Shown here piece by piece: positions 10,293 through 59,754 of a stretch of 64,000 bases of DNA. The position numbers and the translations under genes were made by a program. The notes under the pieces were generated by a model. The model had not been told where the DNA came from. It made no database searches and saw only the letters and a list, made by a program, of their open reading frames with translations. This DNA is from Bacteroidia bacterium (lineage in GTDB: Bacteria; Bacteroidota; Bacteroidia; Cytophagales; JAAEPT01): the NCBI GenBank assembly GCA_030431525.1, contig JAUIJC010000010.1, positions 1 through 64,000 on the forward strand. Direction: 5' to 3'. Numbering within the stretch: the stretch's first letter is position 1; each line of letters starts with the position of its first letter.

Positions 10293-12626
10293 CTACTTTA
10301 TCAGTGACTTAAGTTGAACCGCGGCGGTTCGGTTTGGAATGGAATACAAGGATTGTTGAATGTTCTCCTTCTCACTTTCCGTCAGGTGCCAACTTAGTGA
10401 AGCGCGCTTGCGCTCTGGGGCCTCGGTGTCATGTGCCGTGTCGGTGGGTATGGAGTAACCGTCCTCAGGAGTATATTCGAAATGAATGACCGAAAGGTTG
10501 CCTTTAAACCATGTTGTGGCATATTCTAAATCATGGTCATTGCCCCAGTCCAACAGGTCACCCCATTTGCTCAATGGCCCCGCAATGGGGTTAAACAGCT
10601 TGTCCCAGAAGGATTCAGGGTGTTTTTCTTTGATTTCTTTTCTGCTCTCCGAGTCGCGAATAGTCAGGATAACTACACCACCAGTGTTTTCCGCAATCCA
10701 ATCTTTGAAGGTGTAAATGAATCGAACTGCATCAGATACCCCGAAGTTGTCCGAAAGTCCAGCGTCCATGATTTCCATGGCGGGGTTGCTTGGCAGCACC
10801 ACGTTCGGTGTGATGTAAGGGAAGGTGGCATTCATGCGAAGGGCGCTTAAGAAGCGTAATTCCTCGGCGTCCTGATGCTCAAAGAAGCGCATGAACTCAA
10901 TGGCCTTTGCCCGATTCATTCCACGCTCTCGGTTGTCAGGGAAAGGCGCACACATGTAGGAGACGGGCTGTGGACTGATATAGAGTTTTCTGCCGTCGTT
11001 GATAATGGTGGGAGAGAGGAGGAGCATCGGGATTTTTGCCTGCTCTTCTGGCTCCTTGTAATCAATGATGCGTTTGTTTAAGACTTGGTTGGTATTCAGG
11101 CTCAACTGCCTTTCAAAGGCATAACCACGTCCTTTGGAGTATTTATGTCCTCCAACTTCAAACTGCTGGAACCTGAAAAACAGGTCACTCACCACCATGG
11201 AGAATACCATCGGGTTGAGAATATCCCGTGAAATGTTCTCTACATGCTGGTTGGAATACAATTCCATAGTGTCATTCTCGAGGCTTTGAAGATAAAGCTC
11301 ACGGAAATAGCTGCCGCCAATCAAACCTCCCGAAGAGCCAGTCATCAGCATGGTTTTGCGCATCAACTTGCCCTCCGTCAGGCTATCCAAATGTTGAAGA
11401 GAAAGCGTGCTCCAAACGGCTGCTCGCTGGCCTCCACCGCTTAGGCAGACAAAGACCATTTTTGGTTTTTCACCTTCTGGAAACTTGGATTTCCAATTCT
11501 CTAAAATTTTTAGGGAATGGTTATAGTCTTCGTCAAAGAGTTCTGGAGTAGTCTTTTCGTCAATCGAATGAAGGGAATATTCTGCCTTATGTGTTTGATA
11601 GTCGAGCCCGAATGCCTCATAACGGGTGTCAAAGACTTCTGACTTAATAATGATGTTCAGGGCAATCAGGAGAATAATGCCACCAGTAACTGTCCACGCA
11701 CGAAGCCAATAGGCCACAAATCCTGTGAACAGCAACATGAATGAGAAGAACAGAAGACTACTGGCTGCGGCTGGAATCTGGAAGACAGGTTCTTCTTTAA
11801 AAAGTCCCAAAATGATGATGAGTACAAAAATGGCCGATTCAACGGACACGGCATTCAAGTGGTGCTTGTCAATGATCCTTAGAAGGGCCTCTCGGTCGTA
11901 GGAAATCTCTTGTTTTACCACCTTGAATTTGAAAGCGCTGGAGACGTAACAGAAGGTGCGATAGCGGTGAACACGCTCTTCGGCCATTTTGGTCAGCGTG
12001 TGTCGTGCCTTGAAGCGCCGCCGCCGCATACGTACGTCGATGCTGTGGGCCAGCTCATCAAACACCCGTTTGTTCGTGACTTTGAAATAGTAGAGAAAAG
12101 TGCCGTTGACGATGAAAATCCCCAAGAGCATGGCGCCCACTTCACTTAGGATTTCCCATGTGCCTTGCTGCCCCACGGTCGATTGGAACTCAACGTATTG
12201 AAGGACATAGGTAAAAATGAAGGTGGCGGGAATGATGCTATTGTTGATAGCAAAGGTGGTGAACGGGAAATGTATGGTGCCCAAGAAATGGAACTTGTGG
12301 CTGTCCAAAATGTAGGAGGTGATTTGAAAAGACAGGATGTAGATGCCGAGGCAAATGCCAATGATAAAGGTGGCTTTGTAGCTTACCGTTCCCAAGTATT
12401 CAGGGTCAAGAAAGAGGTAAGGAATTCCGTGCTTTCCCCCAAGGTTGCCCGTTACGATAGCGAAAAGAATCAGCCAGAAAAGTAAAAGGAACTGGTTCTT
12501 CTTAAAGTTGTTCACCAGCAATTGCATCGGAAAGAAGTGGTTCACCCACTTGAACATGCCGATGAGTCTGATGACGATGGGTGCATCGCTCCATGGTTTG
12601 GGCGCTATGGGGGAGTCTGACTTCAT
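10293..12626 (-). CDS. Membrane-anchored patatin-like phospholipase
   Basis: A 777-residue protein. The first 340 residues contain a cluster of hydrophobic helices (for example FLLLFWLILFAIVTGNLGG, then several pairs up to VTGGIILLIALNIII). The rest is a patatin-like domain: an oxyanion glycine run LSGGGQRAAVW, the nucleophile elbow GSSGG (Ser in GxSxG), and the catalytic dyad Asp in IMDAGLSDNFG (DGA/G motif, here DAG). Patatins hydrolyse acyl esters of phospholipids. The membrane portion suggests it acts on the bilayer in which it sits. It is the first gene of a three-gene minus-strand run (with the two barrel proteins), which suggests an envelope-lipid function. Substrate and cleavage site preference cannot be read from sequence. 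Confidence 0.8.
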   Translation of the reverse strand: MKSDSPIAPKPWSDAPIVIRLIGMFKWVNHFFPMQLLVNNFKKNQFLLLFWLILFAIVTGNLGGKHGIPYLFLDPEYLGTVSYKATFIIGICLGIYILSFQITSYILDSHKFHFLGTIHFPFTTFAINNSIIPATFIFTYVLQYVEFQSTVGQQGTWEILSEVGAMLLGIFIVNGTFLYYFKVTNKRVFDELAHSIDVRMRRRRFKARHTLTKMAEERVHRYRTFCYVSSAFKFKVVKQEISYDREALLRIIDKHHLNAVSVESAIFVLIIILGLFKEEPVFQIPAAASSLLFFSFMLLFTGFVAYWLRAWTVTGGIILLIALNIIIKSEVFDTRYEAFGLDYQTHKAEYSLHSIDEKTTPELFDEDYNHSLKILENWKSKFPEGEKPKMVFVCLSGGGQRAAVWSTLSLQHLDSLTEGKLMRKTMLMTGSSGGLIGGSYFRELYLQSLENDTMELYSNQHVENISRDILNPMVFSMVVSDLFFRFQQFEVGGHKYSKGRGYAFERQLSLNTNQVLNKRIIDYKEPEEQAKIPMLLLSPTIINDGRKLYISPQPVSYMCAPFPDNRERGMNRAKAIEFMRFFEHQDAEELRFLSALRMNATFPYITPNVVLPSNPAMEIMDAGLSDNFGVSDAVRFIYTFKDWIAENTGGVVILTIRDSESRKEIKEKHPESFWDKLFNPIAGPLSKWGDLLDWGNDHDLEYATTWFKGNLSVIHFEYTPEDGYSIPTDTAHDTEAPERKRASLSWHLTESEKENIQQSLYSIPNRTAAVQLKSLIK

Positions 12627-12780: not shown

Positions 12781-12787
12781 CACCGTT

Positions 12788-12950
12788 AGCAAAAGAAAAA
12801 CAATAAGCTGACCCAGTCGTTTTGTTCTTTTGCCCGCTGTTCGTGGCAAGTTGATTTGCGGTAGCTATGGCTATCCCTGCATCCACTTTCCACAAACAAC
12901 GAACAAAATAACTGCGCCTTAGTGGGCCAGTTTATTATTTCACTTTCGCT
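12788..12950 (+). mobile_element. 163-bp MITE-like repeat, copy 1
   Basis: A 163-bp block that recurs in inverted orientation at 16630-16792. By hand alignment without gaps I count about 22 mismatches (about 86% identity), with both copies exactly the same length. The ends form imperfect terminal inverted repeats of about 30 bp (AGCAAAAG... against AGCGAAAG...), and the interior holds a second hairpin around GTTCGTGGCAAG / CTTTCCACAAAC. It has no coding capacity. It lies between patatin and lepA and would form part of the lepA leader. Non-autonomous transposon, RNA-structure element or REP-like unit are all possible. Confidence 0.75.
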
Positions 12951-13041
12951 TATCGTACAGAGAGAGTGCGGGGTTTGCTTACTTATATCAGCAAATTCAG
13001 TCCATTGTTCCGCATTCCGTACCAATCTCAGACCTTCCCCG

Positions 13042-14829
13042 ATGAAGAACATTCGCAACTTTTGCATCATTGCCCATATTGACCACGGCAAGAGCACCTT
13101 GGCCGACCGCCTTTTGGAATTTACGGGTACCGTTACCGACCGAGAAATGCAAGCCCAGGTCCTCGATGACATGGATTTGGAGAAGGAAAGGGGCATTACG
13201 ATTAAGTCGCATGCCATCCAAATGGACTTTGAATTTGAGGGGGAGAAATATGTGCTGAACCTGATTGACACTCCAGGACACGTTGACTTTTCTTACGAAG
13301 TTTCTCGTTCCATCGCTGCCTGTGAAGGGGCATTGTTGGTAGTGGATGCTGCTCAAGGCATCGAGGCGCAGACCATTTCCAACTTGTATTTGGCTTTGGA
13401 GCATGACCTGGAAATCATTCCAGTTTTGAATAAAATTGACTTGCCTGGCGCTCAGCCTGAGGTGGTGACTGACCAAATTATTGATTTGATTGGTGGCGAC
13501 CCAGAGAATGTGATTCACGCCAGCGCCAAGGAAGGACTTGGTATTCCTGAGATTTTGGAGGCCATCATCAACCGTGTGCCTTCACCAAAAGGTGAGCCAG
13601 AGGAACCGCTTCAAGCCTTGATTTTTGACTCTGTTTTCAACTCATACCGTGGTATTGAGGTGTATTTCCGTGTCAAAAACGGAGAGATTCACAAGGGCGA
13701 CCGTGTGAAGTTCATGGCTACGGGCAAGGAGTATGACGCCGATGAGATTGGCGTGTTGCGCCTAAAGCAGGAGCCAAGGAACGTCATCAAAACCGGTGAT
13801 GTAGGTTATCTGATTTCGGGTATCAAGCAGGCCAAAGAGGTGAAGGTGGGTGACACCATCACCCGTAAAGACAGGCCTTGTGAAAAGGCCATTGCTGGTT
13901 TCGAGGATGTGAAGCCGATGGTATTTGCAGGTATCTATCCTGTGGAAACCACGGAATATGAGGACTTGCGTGATGCCATGGAGAAGCTTCAGTTGAATGA
14001 CGCTTCGTTGGTGTGGGAGCCAGAGACCTCGTTGGCACTTGGTTTTGGATTCCGTTGCGGATTCTTGGGCATGCTCCACATGGAAATTGTTCAGGAGCGT
14101 TTGGAGCGTGAGTTCAATATTACTGTCATCACTACTGTACCATCTGTACAGTTCCACGCCATCGGCAACAAGGAGGAGCTCATTATTGTGAATGCTCCAT
14201 CCGAATTGCCAGATGGAAACAATATGATTCGGGTAGAGGAGCCTTTCGTAAAGGCCCAAATCATTACCCGTGCAGACTTTGTTGGTCCAATCATCAGCCT
14301 TTGCATGGACAAGCGTGGTCAAATCCTTAACCAAGTGTATTTGACTGCCGACCGTGTGGAGTTGTCGTTTGACTTGCCACTTGCTGAGATTGTATTTGAC
14401 TTCTTCGACAAGTTGAAAACCATTTCCAAGGGTTATGCTTCCTTGGATTATGAGTTGAAAGGCTTCAAACCTTCCAAATTGGTTAAGCTTGATATCATGT
14501 TGAACGGTGAGCCTGTGGATGCCCTTTCGGCCATTGTTCACCGTGACAAGGCTTATGAGTGGGGCAAGCGCTTGTGTGAAAAGTTGAAAGAGCTTGTACC
14601 TCGCCAACAGTTTGAGATTGCCATTCAGGCAGCCATTGGTACGAAGGTTATCGCTCGTGAAACCGTGAAGGCCCTTCGTAAGAACGTAACAGCAAAATGT
14701 TACGGTGGTGACATCTCCCGTAAGCGTAAGCTTTTGGAAAAGCAGAAAGCTGGTAAGAAACGCATGCGTCAGGTTGGTCGTGTGGAGATTCCACAGGAGG
14801 CCTTCATGGCGGTATTGAAATTGGACTAA
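13042..14829 (+). CDS. lepA: Elongation factor 4 (LepA)
   Basis: A 595-residue translational GTPase, close to the usual LepA length of about 600. It opens [19 protein letters not shown] (G1 P-loop), then [11 protein letters not shown] (G3) and NKIDLPGA (G4). The LepA-specific C-terminal domain ends with [23 protein letters not shown]4 back-translocates or remodels stalled ribosomes under stress. A longer in-frame start at 12922 exists, but it would add 40 residues encoded within the repeat element, so the start at 13042 is preferred. It is followed by a strong hairpin terminator and then folD, each in its own transcription unit as far as the sequence shows. Confidence 0.97.
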
Positions 14830-14837
14830 GTCAGTTA

Positions 14838-14887
14838 ACAGTCAACGGTTAGCAGTTATCATCTGCTAACTATTGACTGTTTTTTTG
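14838..14887 (+). terminator. lepA terminator built from GTTAAC/GTCAAC repeats
   Basis: Arms 14838-14855 and 14863-14880 pair at 16 of 18 positions with a 7-nt loop, followed by seven T residues. The left arm contains iterated AGTTAAC/AGTCAAC/GTTAGC units; further GGTTAACTG copies lie at 14939-14970 ahead of folD. Confidence 0.75.
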
Positions 14888-14976
14888 ATAAAGTTCTATT
14901 GAAAAGAAATAATGAATTGGCCAACCTGATGGCCTTTGGTTAACTGCTCACGGTTAACTGATAACTGATTACTAAA

Positions 14977-15846: not shown

Positions 15847-15859
15847 GGCCTTAGATGTT

Positions 15860-15912
15860 AGACTTTAGACATTAGCCCAAATATTGGCTGGGCTAATGTC
15901 TAAAGTCTTTTC
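15860..15912 (+). terminator. folD terminator, perfect 20-bp stem
   Basis: Arms 15860-15879 and 15889-15908 are perfectly complementary over 20 bp (AGACTTTAGACATTAGCCCA), with a 9-nt loop, then TTTCTCT. The left arm is preceded by TTAGATGTTAGAC, so the unit TTAGAC is iterated as in other hairpins of this window. Confidence 0.75.
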
Positions 15913-15948
15913 TCTAATTGTCCAAACCCCAATTCACACTTCCTTTCC

Positions 15949-16566
15949 ATGTCACAGCCAGATTTACACAACCTTCCCGTAATGGAGTCATTCTACACCT
16001 TGCAAGGTGAGGGCTGTCATGCTGGAAGGGCCGCCTATTTCATTCGATTGGGTGGTTGTGATGTGGGTTGTGTTTGGTGCGATGTCAAGGAGTCGTGGGA
16101 GGCTGAAAAGCATCCACTATTTTCTGTGACTGACATTGCCGATAAGGCAGTTGAGGAATCAGCAGGCCGTCTGGCAGTCATTACCGGAGGTGAGCCTCTG
16201 ATGTATGATTTGTCGGCTTTGACCCAAAACCTGAAGGATAAAGGTTTTGAATTGAATATCGAGACGGCAGGTGTCTATCCAATTACAGGAGAGTGGGACT
16301 GGATTTGTTTCTCCCCAAAGAAATTCAAGCAGCCCTTGCCGGAGTATTTTGAGAAATCACATGAGTTGAAGGTGGTGATTTTCAATAAAAAAGACTTTGA
16401 ATGGGCAGAATCCTTGGCTGAGCAAATGCATAAGGATGCAGCGCTTTTCCTTCAGGTAGAATGGTCAAAAAAAGATGAGCTTCTGCCTTTGGTCATTGAC
16501 TATGTCAAGGAGCATCCAAAGTGGAGAATATCGCTGCAAACACACAAGTATATGGATATCCCGTAA
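15949..16566 (+). CDS. queE: 7-carboxy-7-deazaguanine synthase QueE
   Basis: A 205-residue radical-SAM enzyme of queuosine biosynthesis; it converts 6-carboxy-tetrahydropterin to 7-carboxy-7-deazaguanine. The N-terminus shows the family's FYTLQGEG motif, followed by LGGCDVGCVWCDVKE, a C-x3-C-x2-C [4Fe-4S] cluster site, and TGGEP further on. The length is typical of the compact QueE type. Other queuosine genes are not in the window. Short gap after folD's terminator, own terminator behind. Confidence 0.93.
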   Translation: MSQPDLHNLPVMESFYTLQGEGCHAGRAAYFIRLGGCDVGCVWCDVKESWEAEKHPLFSVTDIADKAVEESAGRLAVITGGEPLMYDLSALTQNLKDKGFELNIETAGVYPITGEWDWICFSPKKFKQPLPEYFEKSHELKVVIFNKKDFEWAESLAEQMHKDAALFLQVEWSKKDELLPLVIDYVKEHPKWRISLQTHKYMDIP

Positions 16567-16629: not shown

Positions 16630-16792
16630 AGCGAAAGTGAAATAATAAACTGGCTCACTAAAGCGCAGTTATTTTGTTCGCTGTCGGTAGCAAATTGATG
16701 CAGGGATAGCAGTAGCTATCGCAAATCAAGTTGCTACCGACAGTGGGCAAAACAACAAGCTGACTGGGTCAGCTTGTTGTTTTTCTTTTGCT
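16630..16792 (-). mobile_element. 163-bp MITE-like repeat, copy 2 (inverted)
   Basis: Inverted copy of the element at 12788-12950, the same 163 bp long. Its interior hairpin is formed by TGTCGGTAGCAA and TTGCTACCGACA. Compared with copy 1 both arms differ at the same places and remain complementary, a covariation that points to a selected structure or to arm-to-arm conversion. It lies between the queE terminator and the acetyltransferase gene. The 70 bases between it and the next start show no other clear signal. Confidence 0.75.
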
Positions 16793-16863: not shown

Positions 16864-17487
16864 ATGCGAACCGAGAAGGAAAAAATGCTGTCCGCTGAAT
16901 ATTATAACCCATCGGATAAATTATTGGTGGCAGATCGCAAAAAGGCCGAAGAACTGCTAAAAAGTTACAATCGTAATGGGCAACAGGGGAAGCGTGGCAT
17001 GCCCTTGACAGAGATTCTCGGAAAGGAAAATCGGGGAATGGTAAAGCCTCCCTTTGCCTGTACCTATGGGTATAATATCCAATTAGGGAAGGGGTTTCGG
17101 GCAGAGCAAGGCTGTTGTTTAAATGATTGCAATAGTATTGTGATTGGCGAAAACGTGATTTTGGGCGAGGGGGTGAAGATTACCACCTTGGTCGAAAAGA
17201 AGGACAAGGCTGTGTTGGAAATGGCATATCCTGTGAGAATTGGGAACAACGTTTATATCGGAGACCGAACGGTTGTGTGTTCAGGAGTCAGTATTGGCGA
17301 TAATGTGATCATCGCTCCAGGAAGTGTTGTTTCCATTGATATTCCAGATAATGTCATCGCAGCAGGAACCCCTTGTCGGGCGATTCAGATTGTGCCCCCT
17401 TTAGAAATGTTGAACAAACTTGAAGAATTGAAGCGGGGGAAGGGAAGCTTAGACGCTGAAGATGAAGGTAGAGGTCTGGCAGCCTAA
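16864..17487 (+). CDS. Maltose/galactoside O-acetyltransferase-like hexapeptide enzyme
   Basis: A 207-residue left-handed beta-helix acetyltransferase of the LacA/Maa type. It begins with an N-terminal helical part ending in FACTYGYNIQLGKGFRAEQG, followed by hexapeptide turns (IVIGENVILGEGV, VRIGNNVYIGDRTVVCSGVSIGDNVIIAPGSVV) and the closing AAGTPCRAI. In this family a histidine (in NHN/DHD) is catalytic. Here the equivalent region reads CCLNDCNSIVIG, so the usual histidine is not apparent, which may reflect a shifted active site or loss of classical activity. Acceptor unknown. The C-terminal tail (residues about 185-207) is charged and likely disordered. Confidence 0.8.
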   Translation: MRTEKEKMLSAEYYNPSDKLLVADRKKAEELLKSYNRNGQQGKRGMPLTEILGKENRGMVKPPFACTYGYNIQLGKGFRAEQGCCLNDCNSIVIGENVILGEGVKITTLVEKKDKAVLEMAYPVRIGNNVYIGDRTVVCSGVSIGDNVIIAPGSVVSIDIPDNVIAAGTPCRAIQIVPPLEMLNKLEELKRGKGSLDAEDEGRGLAA

Positions 17488-59603: not shown

Positions 59604-59654
59604 GAGTGGGATGTAGGACGCTATTTCTACCCAATGATTTTCACATGAATAAAC

Positions 59655-59754
59655 AAAGGACTGAAGTCCTTTGCTGAGGAGAAACGCCCCTTCAGGGCTA
59701 CCACTTCAGAGCCCTGTAAGGGCGACATCTTCTTAGTGATGGGTAAAACCCATC
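59655..59754. repeat. Composite element of three hairpins
   Basis: Three palindromes in a row: AAAGGACTGAAGTCCTTT (59655-59672), an imperfect pair GCCCCTTCAGGGCT (59686-59699) with AGCCCTGTAAGGGC (59710-59723), and GATGGGTAAAACCCATC (59738-59754). The middle motif type occurs as dispersed repeats in several bacterial groups (recollection). It lies between the unknown secreted gene and the phosphorylase gene, with no T run after any hairpin. Confidence 0.65.

Follow-up and report, generated by a model that had tools for sequence, protein, structure and literature searches.

Is the hairpin of a short bacterial repeat only a consequence of its inverted ends, or is it kept for its own sake? This question is raised by a 163-bp element with two copies in the window, that is, the 64,000 nucleotides at positions 1 to 64,000 of contig JAUIJC010000010.1 (assembly GCA_030431525.1) from a Bacteroidia bacterium of the order Cytophagales. 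Bacterial miniature inverted-repeat transposable elements (MITEs) are usually taken for decayed insertion sequences, with the hairpin as a by-product of the inverted ends. The original prediction described the two copies as an inverted, MITE-like pair with a covarying internal hairpin. We consider it probable that they belong to a set of MITEs mobilised by IS5-family transposases and built on a conserved, strand-specific hairpin, the ends differing with the transposase. In the genome of the window, the element is spread in many copies between genes, with a 3-bp TWA-type duplication and a covarying hairpin on one strand. Relatives of the same length across the order keep the core while their outer ends differ, and in one of these genomes (G184) they correspond to the ends of an IS5-family insertion sequence present in multiple copies.

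The two copies and their parts are located as follows.

12786-12788, no strand: left target-site duplication of copy 1, TTA, read from the sequence
12788-12950, minus (folding strand): copy 1, full-length MITE of 163 bp; covariance model 177.1 bits on minus against 73.2 on plus
12789-12949: element proper of copy 1, with ends GC...GC
12950-12952, no strand: right target-site duplication of copy 1, TTA, read from the sequence
16630-16792, plus (folding strand): copy 2, full-length MITE of 163 bp; covariance model 181.9 bits on plus against 79.7 on minus
16631-16791: element proper of copy 2
16671-16676, plus: ATTTTG of copy 2, 5' side of the conserved core helix, invariant or nearly so in divergent relatives
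16681-16698, plus: 5' arm of the central covarying stem of copy 2 (helix 2), from the fold and per-pair covariation
16705-16720, plus: apical hairpin GATAGC-AGTA-GCTATC of copy 2, from the fold; its TAGC..GCTA part is conserved order-wide
16726-16743, plus: 3' arm of the central covarying stem of copy 2 (helix 2), from the fold and per-pair covariation
16748-16752, plus: CAAAA of copy 2, partner of ATTTTG, from conservation in relatives and covariation

The two copies lie on opposite strands and are 86.5% identical over 163 positions by BLAST, which gives the 22 differences that had been counted by hand. Imperfect terminal inverted repeats and an internal hairpin are present in both, and the inner arms differ between copies 1 and 2 yet remain complementary, as originally noticed. 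Each copy folds end to end on one strand, at -85.9 kcal/mol for 16630-16792 on plus (z -11.95) and -72.6 kcal/mol for 12788-12950 on minus (z -8.25); in both cases, none of 200 dinucleotide shuffles was equally good. Copy 2 is flanked by the triplets CCA and TCA and thus lacks an intact duplication. While the opposite orientation of this inverted pair is real, the pairing has no special meaning, as these are merely two of 49 scattered copies.

The genome of the window (G000) comprises 4.24 Mb in 75 contigs and is the sole genome of its genus among those compared. BLAST of this genome yielded at least 40 candidates per query, all full-length or nearly so. With a covariance model built from 46 copies and oriented as the minus strand of copy 1 (R1), 49 full-length copies of 159-164 bp were found on many contigs, together with shorter deletion derivatives. 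Imperfect terminal inverted repeats GCRAAAGWRAAAYAAYAA stand at both element sides, and the end pattern TWAGCRAAAGWRAAAYAAYAADCT, with at most 3 mismatches, has 122 sites in the genome against 0 for the reversed control. Short forms of about 50-90 bp possess both ends and little or no core (L046, L048, L049, L050, L051 and L057). At L047 1657-1921, two MITE-like ends separated by about 265 bp enclose a different interior with a REP-like GCGACGCTTTGAAAGCGTCG palindrome; this is perhaps one repeat inserted in another.

When the element is counted from GC to GC, 26 of the 49 copies are flanked by an exact 3-bp repeat (TAA/TAA 13, TTA/TTA 7, six others), and the mixed combination TTA/TAA does not occur. 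In the control, 18% of comparisons between the left side of one copy and the right side of another matched. Other duplication lengths and offsets, tried on the first 40 copies, gave no signal of this size apart from a 2-bp match within the element, explained by the GC of the inverted ends. We read the flank repeats as a 3-bp target duplication with a TWA preference. According to a coding-potential script, each of the 49 copies lies between genes, save for small overlaps. With the folding strand as reference, the neighbouring genes are co-directional at 18, antisense at 12, divergent at 14 and convergent at 5 copies. It can be seen that the genome-wide copy search and the target-site duplications proposed in the original prediction both gave positive results. 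With this copy number, these duplications, the intergenic sites and no coding capacity, the family is a MITE, a non-autonomous DNA transposon.

RNAalifold on the 46-copy alignment gave 56 pairs, and in 27 of them at least one sequence has both sides changed, compared to 9.5 in 500 shuffles and 10-13 for slid registers. Paired cells reached 97.7% (92.8% when shuffled) and the covariation score 0.242 (0.146 when shuffled); none of the 500 shuffles, which do not control for the relatedness of the copies, reached any observed value. Mean energy over the 49 copies was -80.4 kcal/mol on the model strand and -57.4 on the other, with the model strand lower in every copy. An RNA model based on a MAFFT alignment (R2) lost the inner stem and was not used.

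The variants sharpen this picture. Each variant base was counted once against the majority base, as relatives would otherwise count many times, and was scored by its effect on its pair; gapped cells were set aside, both in this genome and in eight subfamilies of other genomes. Among variants common to at least two copies, Watson-Crick pairs changed to G-U in 21 cases, to A-C in 3 and to other mismatches in 7 (21 versus 3, binomial p 0.0003). Among variants private to one copy, the corresponding numbers are 3, 7 and 21 (shared versus private, Fisher p 0.002). The eight other subfamilies gave G-U versus A-C counts of 29 versus 9 for shared and 51 versus 26 for private variants. An A-C on one strand reads as G-U on the opposite one, and a process at the level of the duplex should thus yield equal numbers. 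The preference for G-U therefore indicates that one single strand folds, as RNA or single-stranded DNA. The covarying hairpin of the original prediction is thus upheld far above shuffles, and made more specific by a preference for one strand, which mere DNA copying would not predict.

A DNA search of 148 genomes of the order, own included, gave matches in the own genome only, and a covariance model was consequently needed for relatives. R1 over 98 genomes detected relatives of 158-163 bp in three other genomes, with ends unrelated to GCRAAAG and with the architecture and core of the family described above. A further model built from the nine relatives found with R1 (R3) was run over 390 genomes of the order in 129 genera, with at most 7 scored matches per genome; 21 genomes and 12 genera, own included, gave matches. 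From these, 92 relatives were extracted, leaving out opposite-strand duplicates and two G046 matches (C49, C269). A length of 157-165 bp was observed in 89 of the 92. The model strand folds better in all 92 (mean -60.7 versus -45.7), a preference that is not independent because the model chooses the strand. Two or more end types occur together in several genomes, such as G003, G046, G179 and G192. When 23 representatives are aligned, conservation is seen at the columns ATTTTG, C.AgGC, aTAGC...aGCTA, GAAG and AAAAg, and the ends are variable. The core consists of the ATTTTG/CAAAA helix, the apical TAGC..GCTA hairpin and, in most types, an internal loop C-R-A-G-G-C / AACGAAG, for which a kink-turn-like form was considered as a conceivable reading.

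The flanks of the relatives vary by type: 3-bp repeats at the register of the own family occur in 22 of 91, TA-type 2-bp repeats just outside in 22 of 91, and CTAG-type 4-bp repeats one base further in in 12 of 91. The TA and CTAG repeats, both palindromes, are for that reason indistinguishable from extended ends. Neighbouring genes are co-directional in 32 cases and antisense in 23 (p 0.28), and two of the 92 relatives overlap a long open reading frame. Five insertions are orthologous between genomes, with identities of 95.6-99.4% in the element and 90.9-99.0% in the flanks; landed elements are thus not specially conserved. Additional copies near the fetched ones (L176 2298-2457, L147 1807-2000) reveal local clustering in G128 and G046.

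No Rfam family reached threshold over the element or five relatives, and a relaxed threshold gave only generic microRNA-type hairpins (mir-3910 and others). The accessible parts of the literature searched also describe no such element, and the original prediction likewise knew of no named element with this sequence. Plasmids and phages searched with the family consensus, and plasmids searched with six relatives, gave no match. The 44 contig loci from GTDB with the exact end pattern were taken for chance matches; a partner search on all of them and views of five disclosed no paired elements. Viral contigs contained 11 end-pattern matches for one pattern and 0 for another. Over the 55 pattern loci from both sources, the only match of the covariance model with E under 0.01 was to a palindrome of 60 bp in L065, on both strands.

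The link to IS5 comes from an end-class pattern search on the genomes of four relatives. In G184, the pattern has 24 sites per strand, compared with 6 and 4 in the control. Many of the 24 lie about 110 bp from the end of a contig, which is the picture to be expected if an insertion sequence present in several copies interrupts the assembly. Its pieces code for the N-terminus and the C-terminus of an IS5-family transposase. The first matches DUF4096 (PF13340, E 9.7e-22) and NF033580 (E 3.3e-18) and the second more weakly, both below the whole-protein cut-off of NF033580, which fragments can hardly reach. The ends of this insertion sequence are AGAGCATGTTTAAATTT, with TAA or TTA outside at all 6 ends viewed, and the ends of the 163-bp element of G184 match them over the outer 14-17 bp. 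Pontibacter actiniarum, also of the Cytophagales, carries an IS5 family transposase element on its plasmid NZ_CP021236.1, with about 880 bp between AGAGCGTGTTTAAATTT and AGAGCATGTTTAAATTT; the ends of this element are nearly the same as in the G184 class. A transposon with the same ends, which had been suggested as a check, was found for one relative, and not among the end matches listed or the six DDE_Tnp_1 loci of the window's genome; such a partner is common for a MITE, though the name does not depend on it.

The end pattern alone, without the covariance model, identified eight elements with both ends in G184 and G236, all exactly 163 bp long. The apical TAGC..GCTA hairpin and the better fold on the strand fixed by the end type were seen in all eight, and an exact 3-bp TNA duplication in six. 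R3 reached E 0.05 for two of the eight; for the remaining six, the resemblance is based on their length, apex, fold and ends. The ninth element, of 83 bp, is a deletion form lacking the apex. Short target duplications are typical of IS5 groups, with 3 bp for IS1031-like elements. The TWA duplications of the own genome and the TNA duplications of G184 and G236 agree with an IS5-type element in this respect. A three-nucleotide target is given for the IS1031 group in the available part of one source (PMC2516522).

The genome of the window also contains transposases of other kinds. Its six DDE_Tnp_1 loci were considered as mobiliser and rejected, as they have other ends. Two insertion sequences, L128 (C22) and L130 (C57), have the long ends GACTTTGTTGCACAGACCTGAATCACC and AAGAGCCTGTC and transposase genes with stops. 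Three Y1_Tnp genes (REP-associated or IS200-like transposase) are situated at C39:9195, C19:81230 and C36:58076 (L142-L144).

In the mechanism that we propose, the element would be moved in trans in all lineages by IS5-family DDE transposases, which would bind the element at its ends and cut with a short stagger. As for the copies in the own genome, their mobiliser may have been lost, have diverged or have been missed. For the element to spread, its core would have to fold as one single strand, either in a transcript or in DNA that is laid bare during replication or transposition; lineages that propagate would accordingly keep the structure, and landed copies would drift. Ends may have been exchanged between element types. 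A more far-reaching version, which we put forward tentatively and hold to be somewhat less probable than its negation, is a modular transposon satellite: a single-strand-folding core of about 160 bases that spread through a Bacteroidota order on several IS5-type transposases via transposase-specific ends, with the fold needed for spreading. If true, the element would be a mobile structured nucleic acid (RNA or single-stranded DNA) acting in DDE transposition, and not the passive remnant of an insertion sequence shortened by deletion.

Several points weigh against IS5-mobilised MITEs on a conserved strand-specific hairpin. No insertion sequence with the ends of the family was found in the own genome, among the listed end matches or the six DDE_Tnp_1 loci. 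The private variants of the other subfamilies lean to G-U too, and the contrast between shared and private variants in the own genome is consequently not general; free drift of landed copies then rests on the own genome and the five orthologous pairs. Pair registers were taken for the most part from folds of the model strand, which tilts the counts somewhat towards G-U; symmetric mismatches were added in the own genome, and non-conflicting opposite-strand pairs as well in the eight subfamilies. Energy parameters for DNA also give the preference to the model strand, in 49 of 49 own copies and 90 of 92 relatives, and thus do not separate RNA from single-stranded DNA. Folding as RNA is slightly ahead, as tandem G-U pairs are common, and no result decides. 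Orientation to neighbouring genes is unbiased in the own genome and in relatives, which gives no support for a role in host transcripts.

Other explanations account for parts of these observations. An ordinary palindromic MITE might have no selected fold, its arms being homogenised by hairpin template switching (quasipalindrome correction) and its core being common by descent only. Some double changes do lie in blocks, for example in the inner arms of C55:30004-30166, and landed copies at orthologous sites show no greater conservation than their flanks. However, homogenisation at the DNA level gives no grounds for favouring G-U above A-C on a single strand, and types with unrelated ends retain the core and the length; we regard this explanation as unlikely. 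Less likely still is a host-domesticated regulatory repeat, such as a terminator, processing site or stabiliser of mRNA as reported for ERIC and NEMIS, with host selection keeping the fold. The position of all 49 copies between and near genes, and the stable hairpins with A-rich and U-rich flanks, would suit it, whereas the absence of a significant orientation bias, the 28 of 31 private changes away from Watson-Crick that break pairs in the own genome, and the orthologous copies conserved no better than flanks all disagree.

A single-strand mobile element (HUH, IS200/IS605 or REP/RAYT-like) acting on one DNA strand would explain the strand-specific fold, and the three Y1_Tnp genes are compatible with it. 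IS200/IS605 and REP/RAYT elements are not known to make a target duplication, and their ends are subterminal hairpins and not terminal inverted repeats. The present family, in contrast, has terminal inverted repeats and 3-bp duplications of variable triplets, and relatives have ends that agree with those of an IS5-family DDE element. This reading is largely refuted by the target duplications and is very improbable. Local duplication with chance similarity, which the original prediction had tied to a lack of further copies, is refuted by 49 copies on many contigs, and nothing was found in its favour.

Within the window, copy 1 lies between a gene at 10293-12626 (minus) and a divergent gene, presumably lepA-like, inside the open reading frame 12922-14829 (plus). 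Copy 2 lies between the open reading frames 15949-16566 and 16864-17487. Terminator-like intergenic hairpins after genes, consisting of TTAGAC/ACATTAG-like and GTTAAC-like repeats, occur at 15850-15918 and 14830-14890, and are weak matches to the covariance model of the MITE. An Acido-Lenti-1 RNA (RF01687) at 59654-59699 (plus) scores 40 bits in Rfam, above the gathering score.

Across genera, it is the folded core and the length that are conserved; the ends, as a rule the sole essential part, vary. Should spreading require the fold, IS5-type elements would have a hitherto unknown single-strand step in their life cycle, and the family would offer a natural set of ends and cores for direct tests of that step. 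In the accessible parts of the literature searched on MITEs, IS5 and structure, no order-wide core is described that combines a constant length with differing ends and a preference for one strand; no paper on MITEs in Cytophagales or Hymenobacter was found there. Eukaryotic PIF/Harbinger and Tourist MITEs have a 3-bp TWA target duplication and an IS5-related DDE transposase. They differ from the present family in being eukaryotic, and we know of no conserved strand-specific core in them.

Among bacterial elements, bcr1-bcr3 of the Bacillus cereus group are alike, by description only, in being intergenic, MITE-like and present in tens of copies, and bcr1 has been scored with a common fold (available parts of PMC3446304, PMC6542083, PMC2267715). 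In the same texts, they differ in that the proposed mobility is tied to TTTAT repeats, no IS5 link is described, and they belong to another phylum. ERIC, Correia (NEMIS) and RUP resemble the family by description in their size of about 100-200 bp, terminal inverted repeats, short target duplication and long stem-loop transcripts, and RUP has a known partner, IS630-Spn1. Their termini have TA and not TWA, and an order-wide core with differing ends is unreported in the part of the source available (PMC2229807). Coxiella QMITEs also fold as long palindromes, according to an excerpt (PMC5896051). IS5-linked MITEs are known in Porphyromonas gingivalis, namely BrickBuilt, MITE239, MITE464 and MITE700. 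As far as the accessible text of PMC4596501 goes, these are species-level families with internal minisatellite or other inserts, for which no order-wide core, constant length or strand-specific covariation is reported; like the present family, they are non-autonomous, palindromic elements of Bacteroidota whose ends match the IS5 family.
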